Part shown: positions 6,500 to 25,428 of the stretch, in pieces
Position numbering within the stretch: the first letter of the stretch is position 1
Layout: every line of letters starts with the position of its first letter
Virus record (IMG/VR): IMGVR_UViG_3300006916_000260
Location: 1 to 29,092 of that record
Reading direction: 5' to 3' (one strand)
DNA length: 29,092 nt
Source of the DNA: a virus
Position numbers and translations under genes: made by a program
Notes under the pieces: generated by a model
Told to the model about the DNA's origin: nothing
Databases searched by the model: none
What the model saw: only the letters and a program-made list of their open reading frames with translations

Positions 6500-8521
6500 A
6501 TGGCTGATAAAAATAAAATGACAATATTCCAAAGGTTAAATAATATCTTTACTACTGATGGAATAAACATACCTAAAAATCAAACTAATAGATATTCTAT
6601 TGGTAATGATGTTTTATTAAAAACACAGAATAAACAAGACTATGAAGCTGCAAAAAAACAAGCACAACAAAACAAATACCTTGGTGGGATGTGGAAAAAG
6701 GTTGATGGAGAACTTTTCCAACAATCAATACATTATGAAACTACTCGTATTGGGTCCTATAGTGATTTTGAAAGTATGGAATTTTATCCAGAAATTTCTG
6801 CGGCTTTGGATATTATGATGGAAGAATCTACCACGGTTAATGAGAAAGGTAGAATGCTTAATGTTTATTCATCATCTGATAGAGTCAAAACCATTTTAGA
6901 AGATTTATTTTTTAACCGATTAGATATACACACGTCTCTACCTATGTGGACTAGAAACACATGTAAATATGGTGATAACTTTGTATTTTTAAATATTGAT
7001 GATAAAGCTGGTGTTGTTGGTGCTAGACAATTACCTAATTTCGAGATTGAAAGAAGAGAGGGTGATATATTCAATACTTTAGGTGATAAGGGTGAAGATA
7101 AAACACCTAGACCTAAGTTTTATTGGAGAGGTAGAGATATGCAATTTAATTCTTGGCAGATAGCGCATTTTAGACTTCTTGGTGATGATAGAAAGTTACC
7201 ATACGGTACGTCTGTTTTAGAAAAGGCTAGAAGAATTTGGAAACAATTAATACTATCTGAAGATGCTATGTTAATATATAGGGTTACTAGAGCGCCAGAA
7301 AGAAGGGTATATAAGATATTTGTTGGTAATATCGATGATGATGATGTGCCTTCTTATGTTGATGAAATAGCCAATAGATTTAAAAGAATGCCTATAATAG
7401 ACCCAGGTACTGGGCAAATAGACCTTCAATACAATCAAATGGCTAATGACCAAGATTTCTTTATACCAGTTAGGAGTGAAGATGCTCCAAATCCTATTGA
7501 TACTCTTCCAGGTGCAGCAAACTTAGACCAGATTGCTGATATTGAGTATCTTCAGAAAAAACTATTCACCGCTTTAAGAGTGCCTAAATCATTTTTAGGT
7601 TATGAAGATGCTGTGGGTGATGGTAAAAATTTAGCTTTACAGGATGTTAGGTTTACTAGAACAGTAAATAGAATCCAACAAGCAATAATTATGGAGTTAA
7701 ATAAGATAGCTATTTTACATTTATTCTTGTTAGGTTTAGAAGATGAATTAGATAACTTCACACTTACAATGAATAATCCATCAACACAAGCTGAGATGCT
7801 TAAAGTTGAGCAACTACAATCTAAGATTACATTATACAAAGACGCTGTTTCTGATGCTGGTAATGGATTTGCACCTATGAGTATGACTAGAGCTAGTAGA
7901 GAGATACTTGGCTGGTCTGATAATGAAATTAAGAACGATTTATTAGAACAAAGAATGGAGAAAGCTGCATCTACTGAAATGGAGAATACTGCTAATGTTA
8001 TTAAACATACTGGTACATTTGATGAGGTTGATAAAATATATGGTGATATTGATGCTGCTATGAACGCTTCTGGTTCAGCTGAAGGTGATGAAGGTGATGA
8101 AGGAAGTTCTGATTCTGGAGGTGGCTTCGGAGGTGGAGGTGGCTTCGGAGGCGGAGGTGGCTTCGGTGACGATTCTGGTGATGACGCATTTGGTGACTTA
8201 GGTGATGATGATGCTGGTGATGAAGATACTGGTGGTGATGATGCTGGCGCTGAAGATACTGGCGGTGAAGATACTGGTGGTGATGATGCGTTTGGTGAGT
8301 CTATGGATAAAGCTGAAAACTTGATTTTAGAAAGCAAAAAGAAATATAAATCTAAGGTTAAAAAACACCAAGATAATTACTTTGGTAAGTTACTTGAGTC
8401 TATTAATCCTAATGAAGAAAAAATTATTAATAAGAGAGTTAATATTTCTAATAAGAATTTTAAAGTTAATGAAACTATAAATGGTATGATTAACGATATA
8501 GACAAAATGCTAGATGAATAA
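6500..8521 (+). CDS. Portal vertex protein (gp20-like)
   Basis: 673 aa. Forms the dodecameric ring through which DNA enters the head and on which the head assembles. The T4-like signature is a MEFYPEISAALDIMMEES block near residue 100, then the region with TCKYGDNFVFL, WQIAHFRLL, APERRVYKIFVG and VPKSFLGYED, which follow the gp20 order. It is about 150 aa longer than T4 gp20 (524 aa). The extra length is a C-terminal Gly/Phe repeat (GGGFGG x3), an Asp/Gly/Thr-rich acidic stretch and a basic tail with ILE|S and LLE|S, which resemble prohead-protease sites. A 48-bp AT-rich gap precedes the ATG. Confidence 0.93.
   Translation: MADKNKMTIFQRLNNIFTTDGINIPKNQTNRYSIGNDVLLKTQNKQDYEAAKKQAQQNKYLGGMWKKVDGELFQQSIHYETTRIGSYSDFESMEFYPEISAALDIMMEESTTVNEKGRMLNVYSSSDRVKTILEDLFFNRLDIHTSLPMWTRNTCKYGDNFVFLNIDDKAGVVGARQLPNFEIERREGDIFNTLGDKGEDKTPRPKFYWRGRDMQFNSWQIAHFRLLGDDRKLPYGTSVLEKARRIWKQLILSEDAMLIYRVTRAPERRVYKIFVGNIDDDDVPSYVDEIANRFKRMPIIDPGTGQIDLQYNQMANDQDFFIPVRSEDAPNPIDTLPGAANLDQIADIEYLQKKLFTALRVPKSFLGYEDAVGDGKNLALQDVRFTRTVNRIQQAIIMELNKIAILHLFLLGLEDELDNFTLTMNNPSTQAEMLKVEQLQSKITLYKDAVSDAGNGFAPMSMTRASREILGWSDNEIKNDLLEQRMEKAASTEMENTANVIKHTGTFDEVDKIYGDIDAAMNASGSAEGDEGDEGSSDSGGGFGGGGGFGGGGGFGDDSGDDAFGDLGDDDAGDEDTGGDDAGAEDTGGEDTGGDDAFGESMDKAENLILESKKKYKSKVKKHQDNYFGKLLESINPNEEKIINKRVNISNKNFKVNETINGMINDIDKMLDE
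8117..8170 (+). repeat. Three tandem 18-bp units in the portal gene
   Basis: Unit GGAGGTGGCTTCGGAGGT at 8117-8134, 8135-8152 and 8153-8170 (last copy diverged), encoding GGGFGG repeats. It is followed by Asp-rich degenerate repeats (GAAGATACTGG appears three times up to about 8280). Locally much richer in G than the neighbouring DNA. Confidence 0.9.
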
Positions 8522-8565: not shown

Positions 8566-9318
8566 ATGAAAAATTTTGGTAAAATTAAAAATACTTTTAA
8601 TACAATATTAGCGGAAGCAATAACTGATAAAGACGAAACTAAAAAAAGTTTATTTAAAAGTTATATTAAAATATTAAAAGAAAATAAAATACTAAAAACT
8701 CAATTTGACATTTATACTAAGATTGAGAAGATGGTGGAAGAAAATCAATTCAAAGCTGAAAAAAAGATAAACAGAATTATTGAGTCTATTAGAGAATTTG
8801 AACATAAGGCAATTATTGAAGCTAATAAAAAGTTAGCTGAGTTAATTAGTGATAAAGAAATAGAAGATTATAAGAGTGAAGAGCTTCACGAGAACATTTC
8901 AAATCTTATATTTTCTGTAGATGTTGACACTTATGTTGATTCATTATATGAAACTATTGAATACGCCAAAAAGAATACAATTAAAGAAGAGGTTAAAGGT
9001 AACGGTGTGCCCAATGAATTACTAGCTAAGTTAGCAGTTGATAAATTTAATGATGCTTATACTGAGTTAGATGAGAGCACTAAGAAAGCTGTTAAGGTTA
9101 TTGTTGAGGGTAATGACGAAACAAAAGAGAGTTTATTTAATAATACAATTAAAGAATGTATTTCACTAATAAATGATAAACTTAAGGATTCTGATATTAA
9201 TATAAAAGAAAGTCTTTTAGCTGCAAAAGAAAATTTATTAGATAGAATTTATAATAATAATACTTTTGAAAACGATATAGCTAAGATATTAAATTTAAAA
9301 AATGATTTAAATAAATAA
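8566..9318 (+). CDS. Coiled-coil protein, probable prohead core component
   Basis: 250 aa, almost entirely Lys/Glu/Asn-rich helix, with predicted coiled coil from about residues 30-110 and 160-240. Near the N-terminus is ILAE|A (residues 14-18), matching the L-x-E|A cleavage rule of T4 prohead proteases and resembling LLTE|A in the capsid and scaffold proteins of this window. In T4 the small core proteins gp67 and gp68 lie between portal and protease, and this gene has that position. No sequence similarity to them can be claimed by eye. Own late-type promoter candidate upstream; 11 bp to the PAS gene. Role as a processed head-core protein is inference from position, composition and cleavage site. 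Confidence 0.7.
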   Translation: MKNFGKIKNTFNTILAEAITDKDETKKSLFKSYIKILKENKILKTQFDIYTKIEKMVEENQFKAEKKINRIIESIREFEHKAIIEANKKLAELISDKEIEDYKSEELHENISNLIFSVDVDTYVDSLYETIEYAKKNTIKEEVKGNGVPNELLAKLAVDKFNDAYTELDESTKKAVKVIVEGNDETKESLFNNTIKECISLINDKLKDSDINIKESLLAAKENLLDRIYNNNTFENDIAKILNLKNDLNK

Positions 9319-9329: not shown

Positions 9330-9779
9330 ATGAGTTTTTCTAAGTCTAAAAATATTGCAAAGATTAAATCTTTGGTAGAAGAGTTGTCTATAAGAGACCA
9401 AGAAGTTTTTGAGATGAAACAAGTTCTAGAACAAATTCTTGAAACATCCACTGATGGGTACTGGGATTGGCATATCGAAAAAGGGTATGAGTATCTTAGT
9501 CCTAGATTCAAAAAACAATTAGGTTACGAAGATAATGAAATGGATAATTGTTCTACTTCTTGGAAAGGTTTAATCAATGATAATGATTTAGATAAAATAT
9601 TAATAGAACTTAAAAAACATTTTGATAGTAAGGGTGCTTACCCATTTAAAGTTATATGTAGGTACACGCATAGAGATGGTCATGAAGTAACAGTATTACG
9701 TAGGGGTACTGTAATCGAATGGGATAACGATAAACCAATAAGAATGGTCGGTACGCATATCGACATAACAAATTTATAG
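9330..9779 (+). CDS. Stand-alone PAS-domain protein (PAS_3-like fold)
   Basis: 149 aa. After a 30-residue helical N-terminus the rest is one PAS domain: ILETSTDGYWDWHI, YLSPRFKKQLGYED, a helical middle with HFDSKGAYPFKVICRY, and the closing block THRDGHEVTVLRRGTVIEW...RMVGTHIDIT. These are the usual PAS/PAC landmarks (S-P-x-F-...LGY, RxxxxDG, GTxxDIT). There is no kinase, cyclase or DNA-binding output domain, so any sensed ligand or protein contact must act through a partner. It is encoded inside the head module, 4 bp before a coiled-coil/membrane protein. Possible roles are a structural fold reused in the virion, or a sensor/adaptor modulating a host signalling protein. The cofactor, if any, cannot be predicted. 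Confidence 0.85.
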   Translation: MSFSKSKNIAKIKSLVEELSIRDQEVFEMKQVLEQILETSTDGYWDWHIEKGYEYLSPRFKKQLGYEDNEMDNCSTSWKGLINDNDLDKILIELKKHFDSKGAYPFKVICRYTHRDGHEVTVLRRGTVIEWDNDKPIRMVGTHIDITNL

Positions 9780-9783: not shown

Positions 9784-10125
9784 ATGAACAAGAAAAATGA
9801 AAACGGTGTAGTGCAAAATGGTTGGAACGAGTATTCTAAATTAGTTTTAGCTGAGCTGGAAAGACTTAATGAGAATGACGAAAAAATTCAAGAAACATTA
9901 AACGAGATTAATTTAAAGTTGGGTAAAATAGACACGCTAGAAAAAGAAGTTAGTAGCATAGCAAAATGGAAACGTTACATGGATGATGTTGCTAGCCCCA
10001 ATACTTTAAAAGAGATGAAAAAAGATGTTACAAGTTTAAACACTTTTAAAACTGTAGCAACTACAGTCTGGGCTGTTGTACAAATAGGTTTCGGTGTATT
10101 TATAGCTTTCTTTAAAGAGGGTTAA
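9784..10125 (+). CDS. Coiled-coil protein with one C-terminal membrane segment (holin-like?)
   Basis: 113 aa. Residues 1-75 are polar helix with heptad pattern (ELERLNENDEKIQETL, INLKLGKIDTLEKEV). Residues 90-109 form one hydrophobic segment (TVATTVWAVVQIGFGVFIAF), followed by a short KEG tail, giving an N-in or C-tail-anchored topology. Small coiled-coil plus single-TM proteins of this shape are common near phage structural genes and are sometimes annotated as holin or XhlA-like; that is only a possibility here because no endolysin is adjacent. It starts 4 bp after the PAS gene stop, which suggests a functional pair, for example a membrane anchor for the PAS protein. Confidence 0.7.
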   Translation: MNKKNENGVVQNGWNEYSKLVLAELERLNENDEKIQETLNEINLKLGKIDTLEKEVSSIAKWKRYMDDVASPNTLKEMKKDVTSLNTFKTVATTVWAVVQIGFGVFIAFFKEG

Positions 10126-10186: not shown

Positions 10187-10627
10187 ATGATAACTAAAAC
10201 AGGTAAGCAATTAATAACTCACGATTATATGAATTATAACGTAATTTATGGTACAGTAGATAATAAAAACCCAAAAAGTTTATACTTAACTATTTCTGCT
10301 TGGGGTCAGCCAAAACAACAACCAATAACTAATTACACTAAAGCTCTAAGAAACATTACGAAAAGATTAAAAATGGTTCTACATAATAATTTAGATTCAA
10401 AATTATTTCAAGTTAATAGAACTATAGTTGATTTTGATATGAGAGTATCTGGTATAGAATACGGTAAAAGAAGTTATATGAATTGTGAAATAACTTTATT
10501 CCAAAAAAATAGTTTTAAACTACAAGAAAAAATCATCAAAGATAATTTAGATGTTATATTAAATACTATCATCACAGATGTTTTAGATAATAACATTTAT
10601 TTTGAATTTCAAAAAACTAAATCATAA
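10187..10627 (+). CDS. Conserved small phage protein, unknown
   Basis: 146 aa, basic, mixed alpha/beta. The N-terminal half has strands (NVIYGTVDN, SLYLTISAWGQ), the middle a Lys/Arg-rich helix (YTKALRNITKRLKMVL), then IVDFDMRVSGIEYGKRSYMNCEITLFQKN and a long C-terminal helix. There is no signal peptide or TM. It lies between the TM protein and the prohead protease with an inverted repeat before it and a weak terminator after it, so it may be separately controlled. The overall shape resembles small alpha/beta structural or adaptor proteins, but I do not recognise the family. Confidence 0.65.
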   Translation: MITKTGKQLITHDYMNYNVIYGTVDNKNPKSLYLTISAWGQPKQQPITNYTKALRNITKRLKMVLHNNLDSKLFQVNRTIVDFDMRVSGIEYGKRSYMNCEITLFQKNSFKLQEKIIKDNLDVILNTIITDVLDNNIYFEFQKTKS

Positions 10628-10696: not shown

Positions 10697-11392
10697 ATGT
10701 CTGATATTAAAATAGTGAAACCAGGTGAATGTGGGTTCGGTTATCTAATCGAACAAGATGCTGGTTATATATCTCCCAACGATAAAAGAAACAAAGATTT
10801 CATTAATGAAATTAATAAGTTAGAAAAGGGTGAGCAAGTAATAGCTGACCCACTTGTTTTATACGTAGTATTACAAAAGTGGGGTGTTAAAAATAGAAAT
10901 GGTAGAATATACCCAAAAGATATTCTTGAAAGAGAGGTTGAGAACTATCAACAATTAATTAAGGAAAGAAGAGCTATAGGTGAGCTAGACCACCCAGAAT
11001 CATCAATCATTGCTGGTGATAGAATTTCACATAATATATTAGAGACTTGGTGGGAAGGTAAAACTCTCATGGGTAGAATGGAAATCCTTATGTCACCAGG
11101 TTATGTTAAGTATGGTATCGTATCTACTAAGGGTGATGAAGTTGCCAACTTAATTAGAAATAATATTATGATTGGTGTGTCTTCTAGAGGTGTTGGTTCC
11201 CTTAAACAAATTAACGGTGATAATATAGTTCAAGATGATTTCGAAATCATATGTTGGGATGTTGTAACATCACCAAGTACACCAGGTTCTTGGATGTTCA
11301 AAGATAAGGCTGAAGCTAAACCATTTACTGAATCTACTAAAAAGGAAAATAATTTATTAGTAGACGATATTAACAAATTTTTATTAGATTAA
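10697..11392 (+). CDS. Prohead maturation protease (gp21-like)
   Basis: 231 aa (T4 gp21 is 212 aa). This serine protease of the herpesvirus-assemblin-like fold degrades the scaffold and trims capsid proteins before packaging. The family hallmarks are RRAIGELDHPE with catalytic H99 (residues 91-101) and IGVSSRGVGS with the nucleophile serine at S162 or S163 (159-168), followed by FEIICWDVVTSPSTPGS (182-198). The N-terminal KNRNGRIYP motif (65-73) is also typical. A possible self-processing site FTE|S lies at residues 210-213, before a disposable C-terminal tail. It sits directly upstream of scaffold and capsid genes, as in T4. Confidence 0.93.
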   Translation: MSDIKIVKPGECGFGYLIEQDAGYISPNDKRNKDFINEINKLEKGEQVIADPLVLYVVLQKWGVKNRNGRIYPKDILEREVENYQQLIKERRAIGELDHPESSIIAGDRISHNILETWWEGKTLMGRMEILMSPGYVKYGIVSTKGDEVANLIRNNIMIGVSSRGVGSLKQINGDNIVQDDFEIICWDVVTSPSTPGSWMFKDKAEAKPFTESTKKENNLLVDDINKFLLD

Positions 11393-11499: not shown

Positions 11500-12837
11500 A
11501 TGGCTGATAAGAAAAAATCAATTTTAGATGAAGCTCTTTTGGATGCGAAAAGAATCCAAGAGGCTCTAAATGCCAACTCAAAAGAAATACTTGCTTCAGT
11601 AACGAAGGAAGAAATTGACAGTATAGTGAAAGAATCTTTAGAAGAAGATTACCTAGAAGAGGATGTTGATGACACAGAAGAAGAATTAGAAGTTACAGCT
11701 GATGATGCTGGAATGGAAGATGAAGCTGAAGGTGAAATCGAAGTTGGAACATCAGACGATGAAACAGGTGATGACATTGAGAGCGATGAGCTTGAAGGTG
11801 ATTACGAAAGTGGAATGGATGCAGAAGCATCAGATGACGAAATCGAGATGGACATGACAACAGCATCTGACGATGATGTTATTGCGGTTTATAAAAAATT
11901 AACTGGTGATGACGAAATCGAAGTTGTAATTGATACTGATGCTAGTGAGATTCAGATTTCTGTTGAGGAGCCTGGTGAGTATGTTATTAAAACAGACGAA
12001 GCTGGTGAGGAACCAATGGAAGAAGAGTACATGGAGGAAAAAGAAATGGAAGAAGGTGAGCACATGGAAGAAAAAGAAATGTGTGAAGATGACGCTATGG
12101 AAGAAGAGTACATGGAAGAAGAACACATGGAAGAAGGTATTGATGAAATTATGTATGAAATTGCATTAGACGAAGAAACTATGGAAGAAGAAACTATGGA
12201 AGAAGGTGAGCACATGGAAGAAAAAGAAATGTGTGAAGATGACGCTATGGAAGAAGAGTACATGGAAGAGGAAATGACTGAAGAAGGTGAGAAGCTTGAA
12301 GAGTTAATTTCTAAGAATCATGCTGATGAAGGTAAAGCTGGTGGTGACTTGACTACAACAAAAGGAACAGGTGCTAGACAAGCTGCTAAGTATTATGGTC
12401 ATGAAACTAATGAGTCTAAGGTAATCGAAAAATATAATACTCTTTTAACAGAGGCTAAAGAACTTAAGGGCAAAAACGAAGAATACAAACAAGCACTTAA
12501 GCAATTTAGAACTATGTTAGCGGAGACAGTGGTTTTTAATTCTAATTTAACTTATACTACTAAGTTGATGATGGAACATTCGACAACTAAAGATGAAAAA
12601 GAAAACATTCTCAAAAGATTTGATAATGAAGTTTCAACACTGAAGGAGTCTAAAAAACTTTACAAGACAATTGAGAGCGAATTGAAAAATAGAAAGCCAA
12701 TTAACGAATCAATTGAAAATAAAATAATTAAAGAAGTATCTACATCTAAGTCTGCTCAATTAAATGAGTCTACGGCTTATGTTGATAAAGAAACTTCTAG
12801 AATTATGGACTTAATGAAAAGAGTCAATAAACGATAA
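11500..12837 (+). CDS. Prohead scaffold/core protein (gp22-like), highly acidic
   Basis: 445 aa against 269 in T4. Residues about 45-275 are an extremely acidic Asp/Glu/Met region, including in-frame repeats of MEEEYMEE and MEEKEM type. The C-terminal 150 residues are a Lys/Glu coiled coil typical of scaffold cores, ending in RIMDLMKRVNKR. LLTE|A occurs at residues 315-319 and fits the prohead-protease cleavage rule. Its place between protease and major capsid gene is the gp22 position. In T4-like phages this protein fills the prohead and is cut to peptides. The acidic insertion is larger than needed and may be a spacer or charge-based core. Assignment rests on position, composition and the cleavage site; sequence similarity to T4 gp22 is too low to see directly. 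Confidence 0.85.
   Translation: MADKKKSILDEALLDAKRIQEALNANSKEILASVTKEEIDSIVKESLEEDYLEEDVDDTEEELEVTADDAGMEDEAEGEIEVGTSDDETGDDIESDELEGDYESGMDAEASDDEIEMDMTTASDDDVIAVYKKLTGDDEIEVVIDTDASEIQISVEEPGEYVIKTDEAGEEPMEEEYMEEKEMEEGEHMEEKEMCEDDAMEEEYMEEEHMEEGIDEIMYEIALDEETMEEETMEEGEHMEEKEMCEDDAMEEEYMEEEMTEEGEKLEELISKNHADEGKAGGDLTTTKGTGARQAAKYYGHETNESKVIEKYNTLLTEAKELKGKNEEYKQALKQFRTMLAETVVFNSNLTYTTKLMMEHSTTKDEKENILKRFDNEVSTLKESKKLYKTIESELKNRKPINESIENKIIKEVSTSKSAQLNESTAYVDKETSRIMDLMKRVNKR
12046..12119 (+). repeat. 74-bp direct repeat, copy 1
   Basis: Identical, base for base, to 12196-12269 with a 150-bp period, in frame within the scaffold gene. Encodes MEEGEHMEEKEMCEDDAM and the following EEEYMEE. Confidence 0.93.
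12196..12269 (+). repeat. 74-bp direct repeat, copy 2
   Basis: Second perfect copy of the block at 12046-12119. The sequences after each copy are also partly similar, which points to a recent in-frame duplication of about 150 bp. Confidence 0.93.
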
Positions 12838-12868: not shown

Positions 12869-14653
12869 ATGTCACATTTATTAAATTCTGGAGTGGTTGG
12901 AAACATTGGTTTGGACCACATGAAAGAAGTTAGAAAGCAAACCCAATCAAAATGGGATTCTTTAGGCTTCTTAGACGGGCTTAACGGCCACATTAAAGAG
13001 AATATTGCTCAGTTATATGAAAACCAAGCGTCTTCATTATTAACTGAAGCTACTGATGCGAATTCTTCTGGTTCATTTGAAACTGTAGTATTCCCTATCG
13101 TAAGAAGAGTATTCTCTAAATTATTAGCTAACGATGTTGTATCTGTACAAGCTATGAACATGCCTATCGGTAAATTATTCTACTTCGTTCCACAAACTTC
13201 TAATAGAGTTGATGGTGCTGGAGATGCTGGAGATTTTTACGTTGATGGTGCAACTTACTCTGCTCACACAGGTATGAATCAATTACCAGAGTGTGTAGGT
13301 ATTGGTAACTGCGTTGTTACACCGATGAAGGCTAAAAACCTTTATGACTTGTATTACAACGATGGGTTATTTGATAACTCTAAAGGAACTGTAACACTTA
13401 AAGCTGTTAATGGTGTATTACAAACGTTAAATTCTGCTGGTGTATTTGCTGATGCTGCTAATATTGCTGCATTGCCTTTAGCTACAGATGGTACTGTTAG
13501 AAGTGCAATATTAAGAGTTTCTGGTTTCTCTTCTGAAAACAAAGGTAGACTTACAGGACCAGATGGTAACCAAATGGATACTGAATCTTTCTTAGCTTCA
13601 TTAAAAGTAACTAACGGTAGCGGTGCAGCTATCAATGACGTTGATGCTAAAGAAATCTTTGCTGATGGTGCTGAGATTCCATTTAGATTAGTAACACAAA
13701 AATATGGTAAAGGTATTGTTGATTATGATGATATTTGCGATGTTAACGGTGTTATATATTTAGACCTAGATTTAACTCATCCAGCAGTTACTACTGCAAC
13801 TTTTGATGGGTATGCTGGTGCTGATATAGCTACTGCTTTTTCAGCTGATACAGGTGCTGACTTTGATGTAACTTGGACTGAATACTCTTCTTTAGAGTTA
13901 GAGACTGAACTTGGAGAAGTTTCTTTCAAATTAGACGAAGTTGTTGTTTCTGTTGAAGAAAGAAAATTAAGAGCTACATGGTCACCAGAATTAGCGCAAG
14001 ATGTTAGTGCATTCCACAACATTGACGCTGAGGCTGAATTAACTGCAATGCTTTCTGAGCAAGTTGCTGCTGAAATCGATAGAGAAATCTTAAGAGATTT
14101 AAGAAAAGCTGCTGCTTGGCAACTAAGATGGGATTATAACGGATGGAGAAAATCTTCTTCTGCTGCAAACCCTTATACACAAAAAGACTGGAATCAAACT
14201 TTAATTACTAAAGTTAACCAAATTTCAGCTCAAATCCATAAGTCTACTTTAAGAGGTGGTGCTAACTTTATCGTTGTATCTTCTGAAATCTCAGCTATCT
14301 TTGATGATTTAGAATACTTCCACGTAAGTGATGCTAACCCAGAGCAAGACCAATATAACATGGGTATTGAAAGAGTAGGTTCTTTATCTGGAAGATACCA
14401 GGTATATAGAGACCCATATTCTCCATCATACTCTATGATTATTGGACATAAAGGTAAATCATTGTTAGACACTGGTTACATCTACGCACCATACGTGCCA
14501 ATGCAACTTACACCTACAATGTACAATCCTTTCAACTTCGCTCCAGTGAAGGGGATTATGACAAGATACGCTAAAAAAGTGGTGAACAACAGATTCTACG
14601 GTCACGTAAGAGTTGATGGTATCCCTACATTTAACGTAGCTGAATTAAGATAA
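12869..14653 (+). CDS. Major capsid protein (gp23-like)
   Basis: 594 aa (T4 gp23 is 521 aa), HK97-like fold expected. Strong hallmark: GSFETVVFPIVRRVFSKLLA (about residues 68-87), VSVQAMNMPIGKLFYF, and the C-terminal half with DREILRDLRKAA, GANFIVVSSEISAIFDDL and MTRYAKKVVNNRFYG. The N-terminal 60 residues end in LLTE|A (E60|A61), close to the T4 gp23 site at E65, so the mature subunit should begin at Ala61. The region about residues 110-330 is longer than in T4 and may hold an inserted surface domain. Codon use is more GC- and C-ending than in neighbours, as expected for the most highly expressed gene. A TAAATAAAATAAATAAAA stretch precedes the start. A strong terminator follows. Confidence 0.96.
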   Translation: MSHLLNSGVVGNIGLDHMKEVRKQTQSKWDSLGFLDGLNGHIKENIAQLYENQASSLLTEATDANSSGSFETVVFPIVRRVFSKLLANDVVSVQAMNMPIGKLFYFVPQTSNRVDGAGDAGDFYVDGATYSAHTGMNQLPECVGIGNCVVTPMKAKNLYDLYYNDGLFDNSKGTVTLKAVNGVLQTLNSAGVFADAANIAALPLATDGTVRSAILRVSGFSSENKGRLTGPDGNQMDTESFLASLKVTNGSGAAINDVDAKEIFADGAEIPFRLVTQKYGKGIVDYDDICDVNGVIYLDLDLTHPAVTTATFDGYAGADIATAFSADTGADFDVTWTEYSSLELETELGEVSFKLDEVVVSVEERKLRATWSPELAQDVSAFHNIDAEAELTAMLSEQVAAEIDREILRDLRKAAAWQLRWDYNGWRKSSSAANPYTQKDWNQTLITKVNQISAQIHKSTLRGGANFIVVSSEISAIFDDLEYFHVSDANPEQDQYNMGIERVGSLSGRYQVYRDPYSPSYSMIIGHKGKSLLDTGYIYAPYVPMQLTPTMYNPFNFAPVKGIMTRYAKKVVNNRFYGHVRVDGIPTFNVAELR

Positions 14654-15805: not shown

Positions 15806-16786
15806 TTAATTGATTTTATTTAGTATAGATTTTACAGAATCAGTAATATTCTTCTTAGGTTCCCAACCCATAACGTTTTTAGCTTTATCTATATTAGCAT
15901 AAATTTGTTCTATATCACCATCTCTCCTAGGATAAATTTTGTATGGTACATCAGCACCCTCTTTTTGGAACGCTTTAATAATATCTAAAACACTATAACC
16001 ATTACCAGTTCCCACATTAATTACATCATGTTTTTGATTATTAACAATAGTTAAAGCTTTTACGTGTGCATCAGCCAAATCATTTACATCTATATAATCT
16101 CTTATAGCTGAACCGTCTGGTGTGTTGTAATCATCGCCCCACACCCTTAAATGTTCATATTCACCTTCAATAACACCAATTACATAAGGTATTAAGTTTT
16201 CTGGAACCCCGTTAGGGTTCTCGTATATAAGACCAGATTTATGATTACCTATTGGATTAAAGTATCTAAGCGCTACTGAATTTATGTTGTTAGCATCTTC
16301 AAGTATTTTTTCACACATTAATTTAGTCACACCATAAGGTGTTTTAGGTGTTTGTGTTGGTGCTAATTCACTAATAGATTTATATGCTTTTGGCTCACCG
16401 TATACAGTACACGAAGATGAGAATATTATATTTTTAACACCTAACTCTTTCATTGAGGTTAATAATGATATTGTACCATTAACATTATTATCATAATATT
16501 CTAGTGGTTTATTTAAAGAATCTGATACTGATTTTAAAGCAGCAAAATGTATAACGTCTGTTATATGATAATCTCTAATTATTGACATTAAGGATATTTT
16601 ATCCCTAATATCGCCTTTAAAGAAAGTAGGTTTTACTCCTGTTATTTTTTCTATATTAGATAAAACATTAAGTTTAGAGTTACATAAATTATCGATTATA
16701 ACGGTTTCATAACCATTCTCTATTAATTTAACTACGGTGTGGCTACCAATATAGCCTAGACCACCAGTTACTAAAACTTTTTTCAT
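15806..16786 (-). CDS. galE: UDP-glucose 4-epimerase
   Basis: 326 aa, extended short-chain dehydrogenase. It interconverts UDP-glucose and UDP-galactose (or the N-acetyl forms) with tightly bound NAD in the cytoplasm. Motifs: NAD-binding GGLGYIGSH (8-16), the FAALKSVSDS loop (81-90), the catalytic serine region FSSSCTVYGE (122-131) and YGVTK with Y151 and K155. Also GalE-type are LRYFNPIGNH and the AIRDYIDVNDLADAH block. Length is close to bacterial GalE (about 338). It is 12 bp downstream of a zinc-ribbon gene and ends at its own terminator. Together with the two glycosyltransferases and the GDP-mannose epimerase-like enzyme it suggests phage-directed glycosylation. Which UDP-sugar is preferred cannot be read here. 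Confidence 0.93.
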   Translation of the reverse strand: MKKVLVTGGLGYIGSHTVVKLIENGYETVIIDNLCNSKLNVLSNIEKITGVKPTFFKGDIRDKISLMSIIRDYHITDVIHFAALKSVSDSLNKPLEYYDNNVNGTISLLTSMKELGVKNIIFSSSCTVYGEPKAYKSISELAPTQTPKTPYGVTKLMCEKILEDANNINSVALRYFNPIGNHKSGLIYENPNGVPENLIPYVIGVIEGEYEHLRVWGDDYNTPDGSAIRDYIDVNDLADAHVKALTIVNNQKHDVINVGTGNGYSVLDIIKAFQKEGADVPYKIYPRRDGDIEQIYANIDKAKNVMGWEPKKNITDSVKSILNKIN

Positions 16787-16798
16787 AATTATTGGTGA

Positions 16799-17035
16799 TT
16801 ACTTTTTATTGGAGAAATATTCTAAACCTCTTCTAACTCTTTTTTTAATATCGCTATCTTTAATGTAATTTTCAACTATAGCATTATCTTTTTGCCAATT
16901 AATTAGCGCTTCTAAGTCATAAGACTTTATAACAGAATCGTAACCACACTTATGACATAAATAAGGTCTTGAATCGTCAGATGTTATTTCCCAATACCAA
17001 TCACACTTTGGACATTCTGTTTTATTTATACCCAT
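16799..17035 (-). CDS. Zinc-ribbon protein 1
   Basis: 78 aa. Residues 8-31 form a zinc ribbon (CPKCDWYWEIT, then CHKCGYD), followed by a helical region with INWQKDNAIVENYIK and a basic helix. Its start overlaps the end of the next upstream (leftward) gene by 10 bp. Small CPxC...CHxCG proteins are common in phage structural regions and may bind zinc for fold stability or bind nucleic acid. Function unknown. Confidence 0.75.
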   Translation of the reverse strand: MGINKTECPKCDWYWEITSDDSRPYLCHKCGYDSVIKSYDLEALINWQKDNAIVENYIKDSDIKKRVRRGLEYFSNKK

Positions 17036-17208
17036 TTTCTAAAGTATTTAGTTCTTTGGTCTTTTAAGACATATTCTATTACATCGTTTTTACCGCAGTG
17101 AGGACAACTTAAAGATTCAATTTTAGAAGCTTCGTTTATTTTCCATTCACCATCACATGATGAGCATTTATAAATGTATGTGTGTCTAATAAAAACTTTA
17201 TGGCTCAT
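17026..17208 (-). CDS. Zinc-ribbon protein 2
   Basis: 60 aa. CSSC (residues 15-18) and CPHCGK (35-40) form a compact treble-clef or ribbon, followed by DVIEYVLKDQRTKYF. Its 3' end overlaps zinc-ribbon protein 1 by 10 bp and a 6-bp gap separates it from the upstream gene, so the two are translated together. The 4-Cys layout differs from the neighbour, so this is not a simple duplication. Confidence 0.7.
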   Translation of the reverse strand: MSHKVFIRHTYIYKCSSCDGEWKINEASKIESLSCPHCGKNDVIEYVLKDQRTKYFRKWV

Positions 17209-17214
17209 GATATA

Positions 17215-17613
17215 TTAATTTAAATTTTGTTCGTAATCTTTGTTACAAAATATATTTTGAATAAATCTAGCGTACATATTAAAAGTATCTTCATCATTAC
17301 TAAGTCCTTTAGAGATTTCATTCTTTAATTCTACTAAGTGTTCATCTAAATTTACTAAATCTTTTTGTAACTCCTTATCTTCTATTGTATTTATAAATTC
17401 TTTAACACCAGATATTTGATTAGTTTCTTTATCTTTATGTTTTAATTTATAATCTACAACAAATAAATTATTATTTTGGAAAATTTCTGTTTTGTTTATA
17501 AGCTCAAATAATTCTTCTTCATTATTTATACTATAATCGTCACATATGTTTTTTTTAGAAACTTCAAATTCTAAAAGTAACGATTTTACCTTATTTCTAA
17601 TTATATTTTTCAT
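17215..17613 (-). CDS. Helical phage protein, unknown
   Basis: 132 aa, Lys/Glu/Asn-rich. The N-terminus MKNIIRNKVKSLLLEF is a basic amphipathic helix ending in LLLE, a form often seen at the N-terminus of phage proteins targeted to the prohead, but it lacks the small residue expected after a cleaved E. The rest is helical with a Glu-rich middle. The first base of its start codon is shared with the stop of the upstream gene (17613). Function not assigned. Confidence 0.65.
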   Translation of the reverse strand: MKNIIRNKVKSLLLEFEVSKKNICDDYSINNEEELFELINKTEIFQNNNLFVVDYKLKHKDKETNQISGVKEFINTIEDKELQKDLVNLDEHLVELKNEISKGLSNDEDTFNMYARFIQNIFCNKDYEQNLN

Positions 17614-19016
17614 TATTGGCTAATTCTTAAATCACTTTGACTTACTATTTCAAACTTAAGTGCATCTTTATGTGTGTTAACTTCTAAATTAGATTCAAGT
17701 TTAACATCTAAATAGTATGTTCCAGGAACAAGACTAGCGGTATCTAATAAGAAATAATTATAGTTATTTGCAATTTCTACTTGTTGGTAATCAGTTACCG
17801 TGTATTCGTTCCTACCTTCTTTAACGTATAAGCGGTATTTAAGGCTGTCTACCGTCTGTTTTTGTTCTACGGTATAAGGAATTCTAGTAGATACGATAAC
17901 CTTCCTTATATCGCCTCTATTTATCGTCTCATCCATTTTAATACCACTAATATTTAACCCTACTCTTTTAGGTAAAGAATCAGCATCACCAACATTATAA
18001 TATCCCATACTATCTTTAAGTGCAAAATCTAATTCAATATTAGGTCTTGAAACACCATTGATTGAAATACCACTCCATGTATCTGTAAATTGAGTACAAT
18101 CCACATAACTTGAAGATGTTGGAACCTTTATATCAATTGAGTAAACACCCTTAGTTACATGAGTAACATCACTTGGTGTATAAGATGAGAAGGTAACGTC
18201 ATTGTTATCTTTAATAGTTACAGCTGGTTTTGTGTCTAGATTTGTTGGTGTTCCATTTAAATTAACATATAAATACAACTTATTATTCTTGTCTAGATAA
18301 AAATCAGTTCTATCATCTTTTATATGATTACTATATATAGTTTCAACAAATGGTTCATAAAATGTTTGTGTATGTCTAGTAAAGAACCCAACATACTGAT
18401 GTTTAGTTGTTTCAGTTTGTTCTAATGCTCTTGTGAAAGCAATACCTAAACCATAATTTGTATCACCAGTTAAATAAGCGTTAACTATATTTGTTATATC
18501 AATTTCAAGATTTTCATTACCTTGTTCAAAATGTTGTGTAGCTAATGTTGTTGGTGAGCCAGTATATACTCCAGAACCACCAGACCATTGAGTAATTGTT
18601 TTAGCATCAAACCAGTTTGATGGGTCAAAGCTTTCAGAAGTTTCCCCAGCATATGAGCATGTGCTATAATCATATCCACACCCTTCATCCCATTCTTGGG
18701 TAATTGGGAATACTACTAAATCAAACGAACATGTTCTTTGTTTTCCACCACAAGTTGTTTTACCTAATAAATCAGTATCAAACGCACCTGTATTGGTCAT
18801 CTTTAAAGTATGTTTTAATTTAGTTAAATCAGTATAGGTCCCCCCAGTATATAAATTTTTTAATCTAGTTTCATCGAATTGAAATATAAATCTAGAATAA
18901 GATTTTGATGCAGAGTCACCACCATAGAAAAGTTCAGCTATTGGGTTTCTACCAACATTAACTTTATTATTATACACTATTGTATTGTTTCTATCGAAGT
19001 AAGTACGTATTACCAT
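17613..19016 (-). CDS. Large beta-rich virion protein (DNRLRE-like N-terminus)
   Basis: 467 aa. It begins MVIRTYFDRNNTIVYNN, then VNVGRNPIAELFYGG...RFIFQFD, which resembles the start of DNRLRE-type beta-sandwich domains found in surface and tail proteins. Residues 90-130 contain several Cys (TCGGKQRTC, GCGYDYSTC), possible disulfides or metal sites. The middle and C-terminus are repeated beta strands (Ig-like character; PGTYYLDVKLE, DIKVP). It has no signal peptide or TM and lies in a tail/baseplate neighbourhood. A virion surface or tail-associated, perhaps carbohydrate-binding role is inference. Its own late-type promoter motif lies 4 bases upstream. Confidence 0.7.
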   Translation of the reverse strand: MVIRTYFDRNNTIVYNNKVNVGRNPIAELFYGGDSASKSYSRFIFQFDETRLKNLYTGGTYTDLTKLKHTLKMTNTGAFDTDLLGKTTCGGKQRTCSFDLVVFPITQEWDEGCGYDYSTCSYAGETSESFDPSNWFDAKTITQWSGGSGVYTGSPTTLATQHFEQGNENLEIDITNIVNAYLTGDTNYGLGIAFTRALEQTETTKHQYVGFFTRHTQTFYEPFVETIYSNHIKDDRTDFYLDKNNKLYLYVNLNGTPTNLDTKPAVTIKDNNDVTFSSYTPSDVTHVTKGVYSIDIKVPTSSSYVDCTQFTDTWSGISINGVSRPNIELDFALKDSMGYYNVGDADSLPKRVGLNISGIKMDETINRGDIRKVIVSTRIPYTVEQKQTVDSLKYRLYVKEGRNEYTVTDYQQVEIANNYNYFLLDTASLVPGTYYLDVKLESNLEVNTHKDALKFEIVSQSDLRISQ

Positions 19017-19020
19017 TTTT

Positions 19021-19038
19021 CTTTTATTAATAAATATC
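19021..19038 (-). promoter_or_regulatory. Putative late promoter
   Basis: Minus strand GATATTTATTAATAAAAG, ending 4 bases before the ATG at 19016. It differs by two bases from the plus-strand motif at 8541-8558. Confidence 0.5.
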
Positions 19039-19046
19039 TCGAAAAA

Positions 19047-20114
19047 TTAATTAATACGTATATTTTTAGATAACATTGCTTTTTCTAATATTGGTGCGTC
19101 ATTTTTAAATTTTGCTAATGGAAAAGAACTACCATTTCTATCTGTAGCTGGTGCGGCACCCCCTTCATTGTGTATGTGGTTAAAAAGAGCTTCTTTAAGT
19201 AACTGCAAGTATTCGACTAATTTATCACCAAAAACTAATGGGTGTGCTCTATTTAATATTGCATCCATTGTTTCGTCACTGATATATTTTGGAGAGCCTT
19301 TTTTGACACCTTCTCTATTTGTTAGATTAATATCATCATTACCACCAAAACTTTTATCTCCATCATGAGAAAGTAAATTAATTTTGTTAGCGACTATGTT
19401 GGTAACAGTAACATTTTTTGTACCCAAGTCTTTAGAATTATTATCAGAAATACCAAGAGCGTTTAATTCTTTTTCATTAAATTCTTGATTAAATTTTAAT
19501 TGTATGTATCCTGGATTTATTTCATTAAACTTTCTTCGGTTATTTAAAATAAATTTACCAGCCCTAATAAGTATTTCTCCAGATTTTTGTATTATATCAG
19601 TATTATCTCTACCTTCTATGGTTAAATTTTTAGGGTCTTCATAAACACCAAATGCGTTTGGGTCATTTTTTAGTTCACCTTTTCTATTACCAGGACTTAT
19701 TTTACCATCACTAAAATGAGAATCTGCACCAGAATCATAAAAATCCCCACCTAATTTATCTTCAGTAGATATAAAGGGTCCTATATAAAACCTATCACCT
19801 TGTGCTTCATCTTCTCCAAACATAAATACAAAGACTAACTCTCCATTTATTGGCTTGGCGTTTAAGTATTTAGGTATTAATGGAAAACAGTTGGCTAATT
19901 CACCATTAAATGTTTTATTGTCTTCTCCAACTAATCTAACTCTTATTGCATGTGAATCAGCGTTATACCTTAAATCTTTAGCTCTAGTAGCTTCAGTGGT
20001 ATTGTTGACCTGGACTTCTTCACTATCCACCACAATACCAATTTGTATACTTTTAAAAGGTCTAGGTTTATTAGCGGCTCCAGAACCACCTCTAAATCTA
20101 TTAAATATATTCAT
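19047..20114 (-). CDS. Baseplate OB-fold protein (gp5/spike-like N-terminal domain)
   Basis: 355 aa. Residues about 20-120 fit an OB-fold as in gp5/VgrG/gpV-type baseplate hub proteins: IQIGIVVDSEEVQ, HAIRVRLVGED, CFPLIPKYLNAKPINGELVF and GDRFYIGPFIS. The C-terminus has HPLVFGDKLVEYLQLLKEAL and NHIHNEGGAAPATD, a helical block that often follows in T4-like hub or central spike proteins. There is no lysozyme domain (no lysozyme-like catalytic motif), so it differs from T4 gp5. It overlaps a 60-aa gene by 4 bp (ATGA). It probably forms the hub or spike tip of a contractile tail. The fold call is from motif shape; a structural model would test it. Confidence 0.75.
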   Translation of the reverse strand: MNIFNRFRGGSGAANKPRPFKSIQIGIVVDSEEVQVNNTTEATRAKDLRYNADSHAIRVRLVGEDNKTFNGELANCFPLIPKYLNAKPINGELVFVFMFGEDEAQGDRFYIGPFISTEDKLGGDFYDSGADSHFSDGKISPGNRKGELKNDPNAFGVYEDPKNLTIEGRDNTDIIQKSGEILIRAGKFILNNRRKFNEINPGYIQLKFNQEFNEKELNALGISDNNSKDLGTKNVTVTNIVANKINLLSHDGDKSFGGNDDINLTNREGVKKGSPKYISDETMDAILNRAHPLVFGDKLVEYLQLLKEALFNHIHNEGGAAPATDRNGSSFPLAKFKNDAPILEKAMLSKNIRIN

Positions 20115-20293
20115 GACTTATTATTTTTTAATCTATCAGTTATTGTTTTATTAGCTAATTTAAACTTTTCTTCTAACTCAATTAATTTGTCATAATCTCT
20201 TAACATTTTAGTTTTAAGACTTTCATGGTCAATTTGCATTTGTTTTATATCTAATAGTATTTCGTTGTTTGTTTTATCTTTGTAAATATCCAT
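20111..20293 (-). CDS. Short coiled-coil protein
   Basis: 60 aa, Lys/Glu/Leu-rich, entirely helical (EILLDIKQMQIDHESLKTKM, YDKLIELEEKFKL). Translationally coupled to the baseplate OB-fold gene (4-bp overlap). Possibly a small tail or baseplate chaperone or oligomerisation protein; unknown. Confidence 0.6.
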   Translation of the reverse strand: MDIYKDKTNNEILLDIKQMQIDHESLKTKMLRDYDKLIELEEKFKLANKTITDRLKNNKS

Positions 20294-20304
20294 AACTTAA
20301 AATT

Positions 20305-20748
20305 TTAAACTAGCCCACCAGAACCAGTTACTGGTAATACACTAGTTGCGACCCCAGCTACTGGTACTGGTCCAGCAAATCCAGAAACTGAGGACTTTAT
20401 AGCTCCAGGGTCTATTGATACTTGGCTAATAGCTTCTGTTTGTAACATTTTAACCATTTCTTCCGACATAATTCTAACTTTTAACGCTTCTGTGTTTGGT
20501 CCGTCAGCAAATATATCACCCATGGGCACACCAGCGTCACTTTCATATCTAGATATAATTCTAGCCGATAAGTTCCTAGCGCTCATACCAGGTCTTAAAT
20601 TTTTACCTAACAGTAAAAGAGGTGGGGGTATTTTTCTTGCTGGTTTACCAATCAACTTAAATGCAGCAAGTAGAATTTTTAATATATTGGTTATTGAGGT
20701 TAAGTCAGCATCCTCAAAACTTTTCTCTTTTGGTTTACATTCTGCCAT
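20305..20748 (-). CDS. Probable structural protein, unknown
   Basis: 147 aa. A charged start is followed by a hydrophobic amphipathic region (LTSITNILKILLAAFKLIG), a Pro/Leu stretch (KIPPPLLLLGKNLRPGMS), a helical middle and a Gly/Ala/Val/Pro-rich C-terminus (PVPVAGVATSVLPVTGSGG). It sits between a long structural gene and a small coiled-coil gene in a tail-type block, with a TATAAATA 7 bases upstream. The hydrophobic stretch is not a clear TM. Function unassigned. Confidence 0.6.
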   Translation of the reverse strand: MAECKPKEKSFEDADLTSITNILKILLAAFKLIGKPARKIPPPLLLLGKNLRPGMSARNLSARIISRYESDAGVPMGDIFADGPNTEALKVRIMSEEMVKMLQTEAISQVSIDPGAIKSSVSGFAGPVPVAGVATSVLPVTGSGGLV

Positions 20749-20755
20749 AGTATAG

Positions 20756-20763
20756 TATTTATA
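20756..20763 (-). promoter_or_regulatory. Putative late promoter (exact TATAAATA)
   Basis: Exact TATAAATA on the minus strand, 7 bases before the ATG at 20748 and overlapping the stop codon of the upstream gene. The resulting RNA would be almost leaderless. Confidence 0.5.
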
Positions 20764-22273
20764 ATTTTTTTATTTGACCTAACATTTCGAAAACTTCTGG
20801 ACCAACAGGTAAATAGCTAAAAACTATTGACACATATTGTTTGGCCTTCTCAATTTCATCGTCAGTAAACTTCTGTCTTAATTTAATACTTAAGTATTTA
20901 AGTGCTAATTGTAATAACAGATTTAAGAATATGTTCAAAACAATTTTAGCAACATTTTTAACTAGTTTTTTATTCTTCTTAATAAAATCTATAGCACCAT
21001 CATAAGTCGAACCTTGACCATAAATAATTTGATGGTTTATAGCAAATAATGAAATAAACTTAGGTGATATTATTAAATTTAATAATATTCTACAGAACTT
21101 TCTAACTAATTCCACGAAAAAGTTACCTTTAACACTTGGTTTATTAGTTTCACTCGCAAAACTTGCTTGAGTATCTGCTATTTTATCCAAATTTTCAGCT
21201 ACCTTTTTTGCTTCTTGAGCTTTACTCATTGTGGTACTGTCACCACTTAATGAGTTACTTATTTCTACAGCTAAGTTACTATTTATTTGGACTGCTAGAT
21301 TGCCACATGTAGCTAATTCTATAATACCTTTACTTCTATTATCAGCTTCTCTAGATATTTCTGCTAAGGTTGGGTTATCGAAAGTAAAAAACGAATCATC
21401 AATTACATCATTTTCAGAGTTAAGTATACAATCTAACACTCTTCTTATCTCTGCCTCTATTTTTAATTGGCTTTTACTTTTGGTTGTTGGAGGTTCGTTA
21501 GTAGTAGTAGTAGTAGTTGTGGTAGTTTTTGTTGCACTTATCGACCCAAATAATTCTTCTATAATTAAATTAAACATTGTTTGAGAATTATTACTACCTG
21601 GACTACCAAATAGAGTTAATGAATCAATAAAGTCATTATTAAAATCTGTCAACTTTTTATCCTCAAGACCTGTACCCGCCTTTCCGTAGTCAGTTGTGAA
21701 TGTAATTGTATTATTTTGCGTGGTACCAACAGGGTTAAAATTAGCAGTAACTATTTCATTAGAACCCATTGAATTCCCCCATGCGTCTGTAAGACTGGGT
21801 GATTGTATTTTATAATTTAAATAAGTGTTAAAATCTTGACTATTTGTATTTGGTGGTACATCAGTAAATAATAGTGAACCTTCAGTAGTTTCTGGGTTAA
21901 CTTTCATGGTATCATAAAAATCTATTTTAGGTACTCTTAGCTCTACACCACTACCTCCCGTTTGAAACCATGGTGGTACTGATGGGTCTACACTACAGGC
22001 TACCATTTCTTTCAATTCTCTTTTAAGCCCATCCTTAATTGCATCTTCGAACTGGTCTAATCTGTATGTTATACAATCTACCATATGTTCTTTTAAAGCT
22101 TTAGCTCCAGCTAACGCAGTAGTTAAATCAATAAGGAAGTTAGTGCTGTTAGTATCATTGTTTATTGATGAGACTGAATTAGATTTGTCTATCTTGGGAA
22201 AGTCATCATTTAAAACATTTAGTGCACTTATATTACCAAAAATTTCTTCCTTTTGATTTATTATTGTTGCCAT
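20759..22273 (-). CDS. Large virion-like protein with poly-Thr linker
   Basis: 504 aa. N-terminal half: a 60-residue polar start, a Cys-containing helix (EHMVDCITYRLDQFEDAIKD), then a beta-rich region. Residues about 250-260 are nine consecutive Thr, a linker. The C-terminal half (about 265-504) is helical, with hydrophobic stretches ILLNLIISPKF and NIFLNLLLQLALKY that may insert into or lie on membrane or the tail core. It ends with FSYLPVGPEVFEMLGQIKKL. Gaps of 3 and 10 bp to its neighbours place it in the leftward structural operon. I recognise no family with known function; tail, baseplate or injected protein are possibilities. Confidence 0.65.
   Translation of the reverse strand: MATIINQKEEIFGNISALNVLNDDFPKIDKSNSVSSINNDTNSTNFLIDLTTALAGAKALKEHMVDCITYRLDQFEDAIKDGLKRELKEMVACSVDPSVPPWFQTGGSGVELRVPKIDFYDTMKVNPETTEGSLLFTDVPPNTNSQDFNTYLNYKIQSPSLTDAWGNSMGSNEIVTANFNPVGTTQNNTITFTTDYGKAGTGLEDKKLTDFNNDFIDSLTLFGSPGSNNSQTMFNLIIEELFGSISATKTTTTTTTTTNEPPTTKSKSQLKIEAEIRRVLDCILNSENDVIDDSFFTFDNPTLAEISREADNRSKGIIELATCGNLAVQINSNLAVEISNSLSGDSTTMSKAQEAKKVAENLDKIADTQASFASETNKPSVKGNFFVELVRKFCRILLNLIISPKFISLFAINHQIIYGQGSTYDGAIDFIKKNKKLVKNVAKIVLNIFLNLLLQLALKYLSIKLRQKFTDDEIEKAKQYVSIVFSYLPVGPEVFEMLGQIKKL
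21499..21516 (+). repeat. (TAG)6 trinucleotide run inside the 20759-22273 gene
   Basis: Six tandem TAG units on the plus strand. On the coding (minus) strand this gives ACT codons that form part of the nine-threonine linker. A slippage-prone site. Confidence 0.85.
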
Positions 22274-22276
22274 AAA

Positions 22277-22663
22277 TTAATCTTCTTTATTTTCTTCGTC
22301 ATTAGATGAATCTTCTATCATCTTTCTAATTTGTCTAAAATCATTTATATCGACCTTACCATCGGTTCTCTCATCTAAAGCCCCTTGAGCATCACCCTTG
22401 TGTTTTATGATATCATTTTGTAGTTTAGCTATCTCTAATTTTATCCTCATCGCTGAGTCTTTAATCTTAAGAGCATTTGTTTTTTCTTTAGCTATTTTTG
22501 ATAAATCATCAACATCTTCTGGTTCAGCTGAATTAGCCATTTCATTGATGGTATTTTGAGCATCATTTATATTTGAACATGCGTCATTGTATGTTTCTTG
22601 TAAAAGACCCTCTAAACTGTCGATATTGTTATATTTTATCTGTTGTTTTTTCTTACGTGGCAT
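22277..22663 (-). CDS. Helical protein, possible terminase small subunit
   Basis: 128 aa, strongly helical. After a basic start (MPRKKKQQIKY) it has LEGLLQETYNDACSNINDAQNTINEM, then DVDDLSKIAKEKTNALKIKDSAMRIKLEIAKLQNDIIKHKGD, and an acidic C-terminus. The size, the basic DNA-contacting start and the coiled-coil core would suit a T4 gp16-like small terminase, which recognises DNA and activates the large subunit. The call is weak because no diagnostic motif exists and gp16 is usually next to gp17, whereas here it is across the strand switch. It could equally be a structural protein. Confidence 0.6.
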   Translation of the reverse strand: MPRKKKQQIKYNNIDSLEGLLQETYNDACSNINDAQNTINEMANSAEPEDVDDLSKIAKEKTNALKIKDSAMRIKLEIAKLQNDIIKHKGDAQGALDERTDGKVDINDFRQIRKMIEDSSNDEENKED

Positions 22664-22670
22664 AGTGTAT

Positions 22671-22690
22671 AGTTTTTATATAAATATAAT
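22671..22690 (-). promoter_or_regulatory. Putative late promoter
   Basis: Minus strand ATTATATTTATATAAAAACT, ending 7 bases before the ATG at 22663. A weaker match to the CATATTTATATATAAAAG type. Confidence 0.4.
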
Positions 22691-22706
22691 GATAAATAAT
22701 TTTTTG

Positions 22707-23450
22707 TTATTCAATACCGTTTTCTAAACCATCAATCTTAATAAAAGCGTATAATTCTTTATACCTTTTCATAGCTAATCGAATATCTTTGGTATTTAGT
22801 CCAGTATAATTTCTCATACTTTCCAATACCGAATTTTTGTTAAATTTAGTTCCACCAGCCATAGAATCTAAAGTATTTTCCCAATCTTTAAGAATATCCA
22901 TAAGTGCTAAACCAACCTTCTCTTCGTTATCACTAATTTTCTTTTTACCAACAACACTATCACCTTCTAATTCATTTTTGATACTAGTGACTAGTTTGTT
23001 TATAAATTTATTAACAGTGAATTCGTTGTCGTCTAACTCATATTGAAAGTCTTTTCTCTCTTCTAAATATGGTGACAAATCTTCGTATGAAGATAATTGT
23101 TTAGTTTTTTTGTCATCGTTAATTAGTAAACCTAATATATAATTTTTACATATAGTTCCGTAATAAGAATAAGCTTTCTTACCTTTAGAATTTTCAAATT
23201 TATGAGCTTTTGTCATTAGGAACGAAAGAGTGTCAGTGTGCAAGTGCTCAAATGTTTCACTCTTTCTATACAATTTGTATTTCCTAATTATCGATTCAAT
23301 CATCTTATTGAGTGGCTCACGTAGCCACTCATTATAGATTGCATTCCTTTCTAATTCATCCTCTGAATCCAAATATTTTAAAACGGCTTCTTCTTGGTCG
23401 GGACCGAAATATAAATCGTTTTTTCTTTTTCGTCCTCTTTTGTTAGCCAT
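22707..23450 (-). CDS. Late-transcription sigma factor (gp55-like)
   Basis: 247 aa (T4 gp55 is 185). The sigma-region-2-like segment at about residues 45-115 (LNKMIESIIRKYKLYR, HTDTLSFLMTKAHKFENSKG, KKAYSYYGTICKNYILGLLI) follows the order of T4 gp55, where HNFDE...HAYITQACFNAF is the matching stretch. In T4-like phages this protein binds host RNA polymerase core and recognises the TATAAATA-type late promoter. Here such motifs lie upstream of many head and tail genes on both strands. The C-terminal third (MRNYTGLNTKDIRLAMKRYK) is basic and may contact DNA. The N-terminus is basic (MANKRGRKRK). It lies in a tight leftward string with 6-bp spacing to the glycosyltransferase. Confidence 0.85.
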   Translation of the reverse strand: MANKRGRKRKNDLYFGPDQEEAVLKYLDSEDELERNAIYNEWLREPLNKMIESIIRKYKLYRKSETFEHLHTDTLSFLMTKAHKFENSKGKKAYSYYGTICKNYILGLLINDDKKTKQLSSYEDLSPYLEERKDFQYELDDNEFTVNKFINKLVTSIKNELEGDSVVGKKKISDNEEKVGLALMDILKDWENTLDSMAGGTKFNKNSVLESMRNYTGLNTKDIRLAMKRYKELYAFIKIDGLENGIE

Positions 23451-23456
23451 TTTAAA

Positions 23457-24269: not shown

Positions 24270-24271
24270 AA

Positions 24272-25413: not shown

Positions 25414-25428
25414 TTGTATTAATTTTAA

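Follow-up and report, generated by a model that had tools for sequence, protein, structure and literature searches.

Lytic phages are often regarded as having a fixed late programme. In T4, the prohead core genes lie between gp20 and gp21, and XhlA, from the lysis cassettes of Bacillus prophages, is small and has a coiled coil and a membrane helix at its C-terminus. PAS domains, in turn, can serve in dimerisation. Among the described systems that are closest to the locus analysed here, VqmA of vibriophage VP882 is a phage PAS receptor with its own DNA-binding output domain (PMC8284805), and the short LOV proteins, such as PpSB1-LOV (PDB 5j3w), are PAS folds that occur alone, flanked by helices and lacking an output domain (PMC5314338). 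Phage PAS sensors and stand-alone PAS-fold proteins are thus already known. The pairing of a lone PAS protein, by way of a common N-terminal motif, with a small coiled-coil membrane protein (here called ccTM) is apparently undescribed; no paper on such a module was found in the literature searched, the coverage of which was incomplete.

A lone PAS gene between portal and protease genes

The window, that is, the whole stretch of DNA that was analysed, comprises 29,092 bases from an uncultured virus, a marine T4-like phage, and Pfam recognises gp17-, gp20-, gp21- and gp23-like genes in it. Over part of the length only, the major capsid protein shares about 40% identity with those of Flavobacterium phage immuto and Microcystis phage Mel-JY01, and no relative of ccTM or of the PAS protein was recognised in the head modules of these two phages. 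The features discussed below are the following:

6500..8521, plus strand: gp20-like portal (Portal_T4, 4.6e-74)
8566..9318, plus strand: 250-aa gene upstream of the PAS gene (no Pfam match)
9330..9779, plus strand: stand-alone PAS_3 gene, 149 aa (open reading frame call, Pfam, PDB sequence match, model and Foldseek)
9339..9449, plus strand: N-terminal helix of the PAS protein, residues 4-40, holding the partner motif (predicted helix and motif comparison)
9453..9770, plus strand: PAS core, residues 42-147 (Pfam 55-143, PDB alignment 39-148, Foldseek)
9784..10125, plus strand: ccTM partner, 113 aa, with a coiled-coil-like body and a C-terminal membrane helix
10054..10110, plus strand: predicted membrane segment of ccTM, residues 91-109 (Kyte-Doolittle 19-residue peak of 1.96)
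10187..10627, plus strand: downstream 146-aa gene, conserved in head modules, no family assigned
10697..11392, plus strand: gp21-like prohead protease (Peptidase_S77, 2.1e-26)
11500..12837, plus strand: scaffold-like protein, named by position (six conserved [LI]xE sites, no Pfam match)
12869..14653, plus strand: gp23-like major capsid protein (Gp23, 7e-71)

Elsewhere in the window, a minus-strand block at 15806-28289 carries a GDP-mannose dehydratase-like gene, a glycosyltransferase and PhoH.

The 149-aa protein matches Pfam PAS_3 with an E-value of 2.8e-13 and 50.4 bits, above the curated cut-off of 25.6 bits, and TIGR00229 (sensory_box) at 8.9e-10. Its top PDB sequence match, at 5.5e-15, is 3mr0, the PAS domain of a sensory-box histidine kinase. 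An AlphaFold (AF2) model built from 17 homologues shows the PAS fold, with a mean pLDDT of 83, values of about 90-95 in the PAS core and of about 60 in the helix; the predicted order is a helix at residues 4-40 followed by the usual PAS strands and helices. In a Foldseek search of this model against the PDB, 3mr0 was again the best match (2.3e-10), and the rest of the best 50 matches were all PAS- or LOV-containing structures. Among viral structures, the nearest match is a 165-aa protein labelled 'histidine kinase' from an uncultured marine phage. The original prediction, that a complete PAS domain stands alone between the portal and the protease gene and is followed after a 4-bp gap by a coiled-coil/TM protein (start ATG at 9784), is therefore borne out by profile, fold and gene order, with two refinements: portal and PAS genes are not contiguous, since the 250-aa gene lies between them, and residues 4-40 are modelled as a long N-terminal helix outside the PAS domain. 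Helix and PAS together use up the 149 residues, leaving no output domain, and no DNA-binding output domain was found with Pfam or in the predicted model. No ligand- or cofactor-specific signature was identified either. The open frame is not a chance one, as over 20 related contigs have an intact homologue at the corresponding place and dN/dS of 0.05-0.33 indicates purifying selection.

Association with ccTM and a shared N-terminal motif

The same slot was compared in 53 related portal loci (labels such as L007 denote individual loci). Wherever coverage is full, the usual order is terminase, a small gene, portal, the 250-aa gene, a variable gene, ccTM, the 146-aa gene, protease, scaffold and capsid. 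The variable gene is the PAS gene in the clade of the window, a tandem pair of PAS genes in L007 and L008, and a helical protein of 73-76 aa in a sister clade. Three close relatives (L045-L047) retain ccTM and have no PAS gene, while both genes are absent from the slot in L026, L027, L044 and L048. The first 18 or so residues (SxNIxKLRxL) are common to the PAS and the short protein; a profile comparison of PAS against the short partners alone gave a probability of 46% (P 2e-4), which was only suggestive before the larger survey. The ccTM gene, with dN/dS of 0.02-0.09, is under about the same constraint as the portal, and the PAS gene evolves faster. Other variations in these regions are a glutamine synthetase-like open frame of 358-384 aa, recognised by sequence inspection, which lies within the T4-like head module between ccTM and the 146-aa-type gene (L102, L103, L113, L120, L132, L136, L167), and a protein of 90-104 aa with apparent membrane helices directly 3' of ccTM (L103:5353-5625, L113:3268-3576, L136:5336-5650, L102:5355-5660), for which no convincing Pfam or PHROG match was obtained. 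Portal, terminase or protease frames enlarged to roughly 600-1850 aa in L045-L047, L039, L042-L044, L048 and L053 suggest inteins in these head genes.

Profile scans also found PAS-ccTM pairs away from the head module, including L085, L087, L090-L092, L184 and L207-L210. In L085 ccTM precedes PAS and an opposite-strand endolysin adjoins them. In the 40-kb record of L087, where no T4 portal was found, PAS is followed by a short ccTM, by a small gene that weakly matches a holin and by an M15-like frame. ccTM followed by PAS, with a tail-tube-like gene nearby, is the arrangement in L090-L092, L105, L106 and L109; at L090:2816-3702, one ccTM gene is followed by two lone PAS genes, one of the Pfam class PAS_4 and the other of PAS_3. 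A short partner, ccTM and PAS occur together in L184/L186. In some phages the pair lies 3' of a baseplate-like gene, in another T4-like group after two gp23-like genes and before a head-tail adaptor, and in L227/L228 beyond the recognised structural genes. Each ccTM-bearing contig of the first set of large records has one ccTM and zero or one PAS_3, and the T4 portal, where found, is up to tens of kilobases from ccTM. A phage-like contig (L203:1908-4757) carries a row made of a full PAS histidine kinase, two response-regulator-like frames (168 and 308 aa) and a 127-aa coiled-coil/membrane protein.

The constant association of the PAS protein is therefore with ccTM and not with the head module. 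Partner and ccTM are found together in nearly every ccTM locus, and a few ccTM genes are without a recognised partner. The partner comes first in 131 pairs and ccTM in 8, with a median gap of 1-2 bp and a usual spacing of 0-20 bp. In 45 of 45 large phage records, which were selected for carrying ccTM, its copy number is exactly one. On a ccTM tree of 146 proteins, which has limited resolution, partner type needs 19 changes against a shuffled mean of 70, which indicates that partner type passes down within a clade and is exchanged from one clade to another.

The window protein carries the motif NIxKLxxLVxxLxxRDxx at residues 8-30 or thereabouts, and in a second ccTM scan of at least 80 loci the adjacent gene, normally upstream, starts with LxxLxxLVxxLxxRDxxLK. 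The domains behind the motif differ: PAS_3 in the window clade, a PAS_4-like type of about 180 aa, a third PAS-like type, and short helical forms of 58-97 aa. The 180-aa type is assigned to PAS on its predicted fold, as a confident model reproduces the order of the PAS strands and most of its fold matches in the PDB are sensor domains of PAS type; Pfam PAS_4 is found in 9 of 27 members (best 5e-5). The third type (L227-L232, L227 being a contig of a single-cell Prochlorococcus genome) may be called PAS-like on its sequence and on a weak match (3e-5) to a PAS_3-based model.

A model of 33 N-terminal columns, trained on the 180-aa PAS_4 type only, was searched at E<=10 against 13,230 open frames from 306 sequences (the loci and the window). 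It matched 124, of which 118 adjoin ccTM, including 27 PAS_3-type and 57 short partners; several of the other six are PAS genes that either lie at the end of a contig or belong to the tandem pair. Background adjacency to ccTM is 479 of 12,951 frames, and the test measures association within loci, not overall frequency, since the loci had been chosen for ccTM, PAS or portal genes. Of 185 matches to the motif, 180 begin no later than residue 25. In 31 bacterial PAS-sensor loci, the PAS model matched 31 frames at E<=1e-3 and the motif models matched none at E<=0.1; the motif is accordingly not the usual PAS cap, and this control excludes an ordinary PAS N-cap. The window PAS protein thus shows the two features that define the proposed ccTM-partner module, the N-terminal motif and adjacency to ccTM.

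Proposed mechanism and rival explanations

On a narrow balance of probability, the pair is a two-gene phage signalling module tethered to the membrane, in which the PAS protein serves as the soluble, cytosolic sensor. Its N-terminal helix would dock on the coiled coil of ccTM at the inner membrane, a contact for which gene adjacency and the common motif are circumstantial evidence. A small ligand, or a redox or energy change, in the PAS core would alter the helix, as in the linkers of PAS-linked kinases, and ccTM would pass this change on so as to govern a step of infection that is linked to the membrane. The leading guess for that step, improbable in itself, is lysis timing, and the second, somewhat less probable again, is head assembly at the membrane. 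Sensing would be dispensable for the basic role of ccTM, given the many short helical partners without PAS and the retention of ccTM without PAS in L045-L047. The original suggestions of a phage-made sensor and of a link to the 9784-10125 protein both gain from the finding that the pairing is constant across distant phages.

It is tentatively proposed, with slightly less than even confidence, that this is a widespread phage signalling system, in which a tail-anchored coiled-coil platform and a docking-helix partner, with a sensor swapped between lineages, read the state of the host at the membrane without a kinase or transcription factor. If true, many large marine phages monitor the condition of the host through a membrane platform with exchangeable PAS sensors. 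The motif and ccTM would provide a simple handle for finding further sensors and what they control, and unannotated or misannotated proteins, of which the 165-aa 'histidine kinase' is an example, would gain function-bearing neighbours.

Several other explanations have to be weighed against this signalling module. In both the window clade and the large short-partner clade the pair is found between the portal and the protease gene, in another T4-like group it has two gp23-like genes on one side and a head-tail adaptor on the other, and ccTM is under portal-level constraint. These points would fit a role in the head or virion, with ccTM tethering prohead initiation to the inner membrane near the portal and the PAS or short partner acting as an assembly adaptor or as a minor prohead or virion component. 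Such a role is rather unlikely, however, given that the pair also lies after tail-tube-like and baseplate-like genes, beside an endolysin and outside the structural genes (L227/L228), and that neither gene is in the slot in L026, L027, L044 and L048. A conserved gp21-type [LI]xE site is present in the scaffold, major capsid, protease and 250-aa protein families (in the last, an N-terminal [IL]xE-like stretch is kept, by eye, and an LDES site is conserved near residue 168), but none was found in the PAS or ccTM columns, and a processed prohead protein was rejected on this difference. The non-head positions, the lack of a conserved protease site and the loss of PAS in L045-L047 all speak against the original alternative, in which the PAS fold has become a component of the virion. 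A lysis-timing device, in which ccTM acts as a tail-anchored protein of the XhlA/holin kind and its PAS partner tunes the time of membrane opening, draws on weak matches of the L087 ccTM to XhlA-type 'hemolysin' PHROGs (1.3e-3) and of the L207 ccTM to a holin PHROG (6.7e-4), on endolysins that adjoin the pair in L085 (4.2e-18) or lie near it in L121 (2.7e-16), and on the M15-like frame 3' of the pair in L087. On the other hand, the window-clade ccTM has no match to a holin family, and for the window ccTM none to any lysis family was obtained. When the phrog_894 endolysin was sought in the 45 records, it adjoined the pair in L085 and L087 (the latter a weak match, 7.8e-4), was 40-180 kb away in three and went unrecognised in most, so a lysis cassette is not a general explanation, and this device is unlikely, if slightly less so than a role in the head or virion.

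It is also conceivable, if doubtful, that the PAS core senses nothing now and serves only as a scaffold, dimerising and keeping the docking helix at its spacing. Short partners without PAS pair with ccTM alone, PAS changes faster than ccTM, and genes of the L019 type have an insertion of about 40 aa within the domain, all of which would suit a passive core. Against this, several Pfam classes of PAS-type domain are found behind the same helix, with two different PAS partners in L090 and two in tandem in L007, and this multiplicity is easier to understand if sensing is selected. Far less probable is a decoy role, in which the protein would titrate away a kinase of the host that contains PAS, or the signal of that kinase. 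The nearest cellular relatives are indeed PAS domains in long multidomain sensors, at no more than 42% identity among the matches listed, yet a decoy leaves the phage-specific N-terminal motif and the pairing with ccTM unexplained, and the original idea of a decoy for host signalling has found no specific support.

Origin and comparison with known systems

Among the matches listed from 150 genomes of one bacterial phylum, the nearest bacterial PAS_3 domains are at most 42% identical, and all those listed lie within longer open frames of 273-2721 aa. In a tree of 53 rows, one branch separates phage from bacterial PAS_3 with weak support (78/69), and the head-module PAS set is likewise on one side (91/83). 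A single capture of PAS from a bacterial sensor is possible on this comparison set of one phylum. A tblastn search of INPHARED with the PAS protein, three ccTM versions, the 250-aa gene and the third-type PAS gave no match besides the record of Pseudomonas phage Y10 (OQ572411.1, L088, marked UNVERIFIED). This candidate was rejected as a phage relative: the region encodes a bacterial PAS-GGDEF-like protein among ordinary bacterial-looking genes, on account of which the DNA is probably not from a phage.

The bacterial PAS_3/sensory-box domains, for example 3mr0, share sequence family and core fold with the phage PAS, but are parts of longer proteins, whereas the phage protein consists of a phage-specific helix followed by this one domain. 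The T4 prohead core genes occupy the same portal-protease slot as the PAS and ccTM genes of the window; unlike them, PAS and ccTM have neither a match to their families nor a conserved protease site, and the pair is found elsewhere in other phages. XhlA and ccTM are alike in architecture, with weak PHROG matches only for distant ccTM members; in contrast to the XhlA cassettes, the window ccTM has no significant family match and no lysis gene was recognised beside it in the window. The short LOV proteins are among the fold matches of the window PAS, and both are lone PAS folds with no output. Photoactive LOV domains nonetheless require a conserved cysteine near the flavin, and no invariant cysteine was found across the 17 aligned homologues, in which a recurrent LCRG cysteine is replaced by Arg in the window and by Ser in others; the identity of a LOV photosensor was dropped for this reason. 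Finally, VqmA is likewise a phage-encoded PAS protein and gives a precedent for PAS sensing by phages; it has a DNA-binding output, whereas the window PAS is without one and has a membrane protein as its conserved partner.
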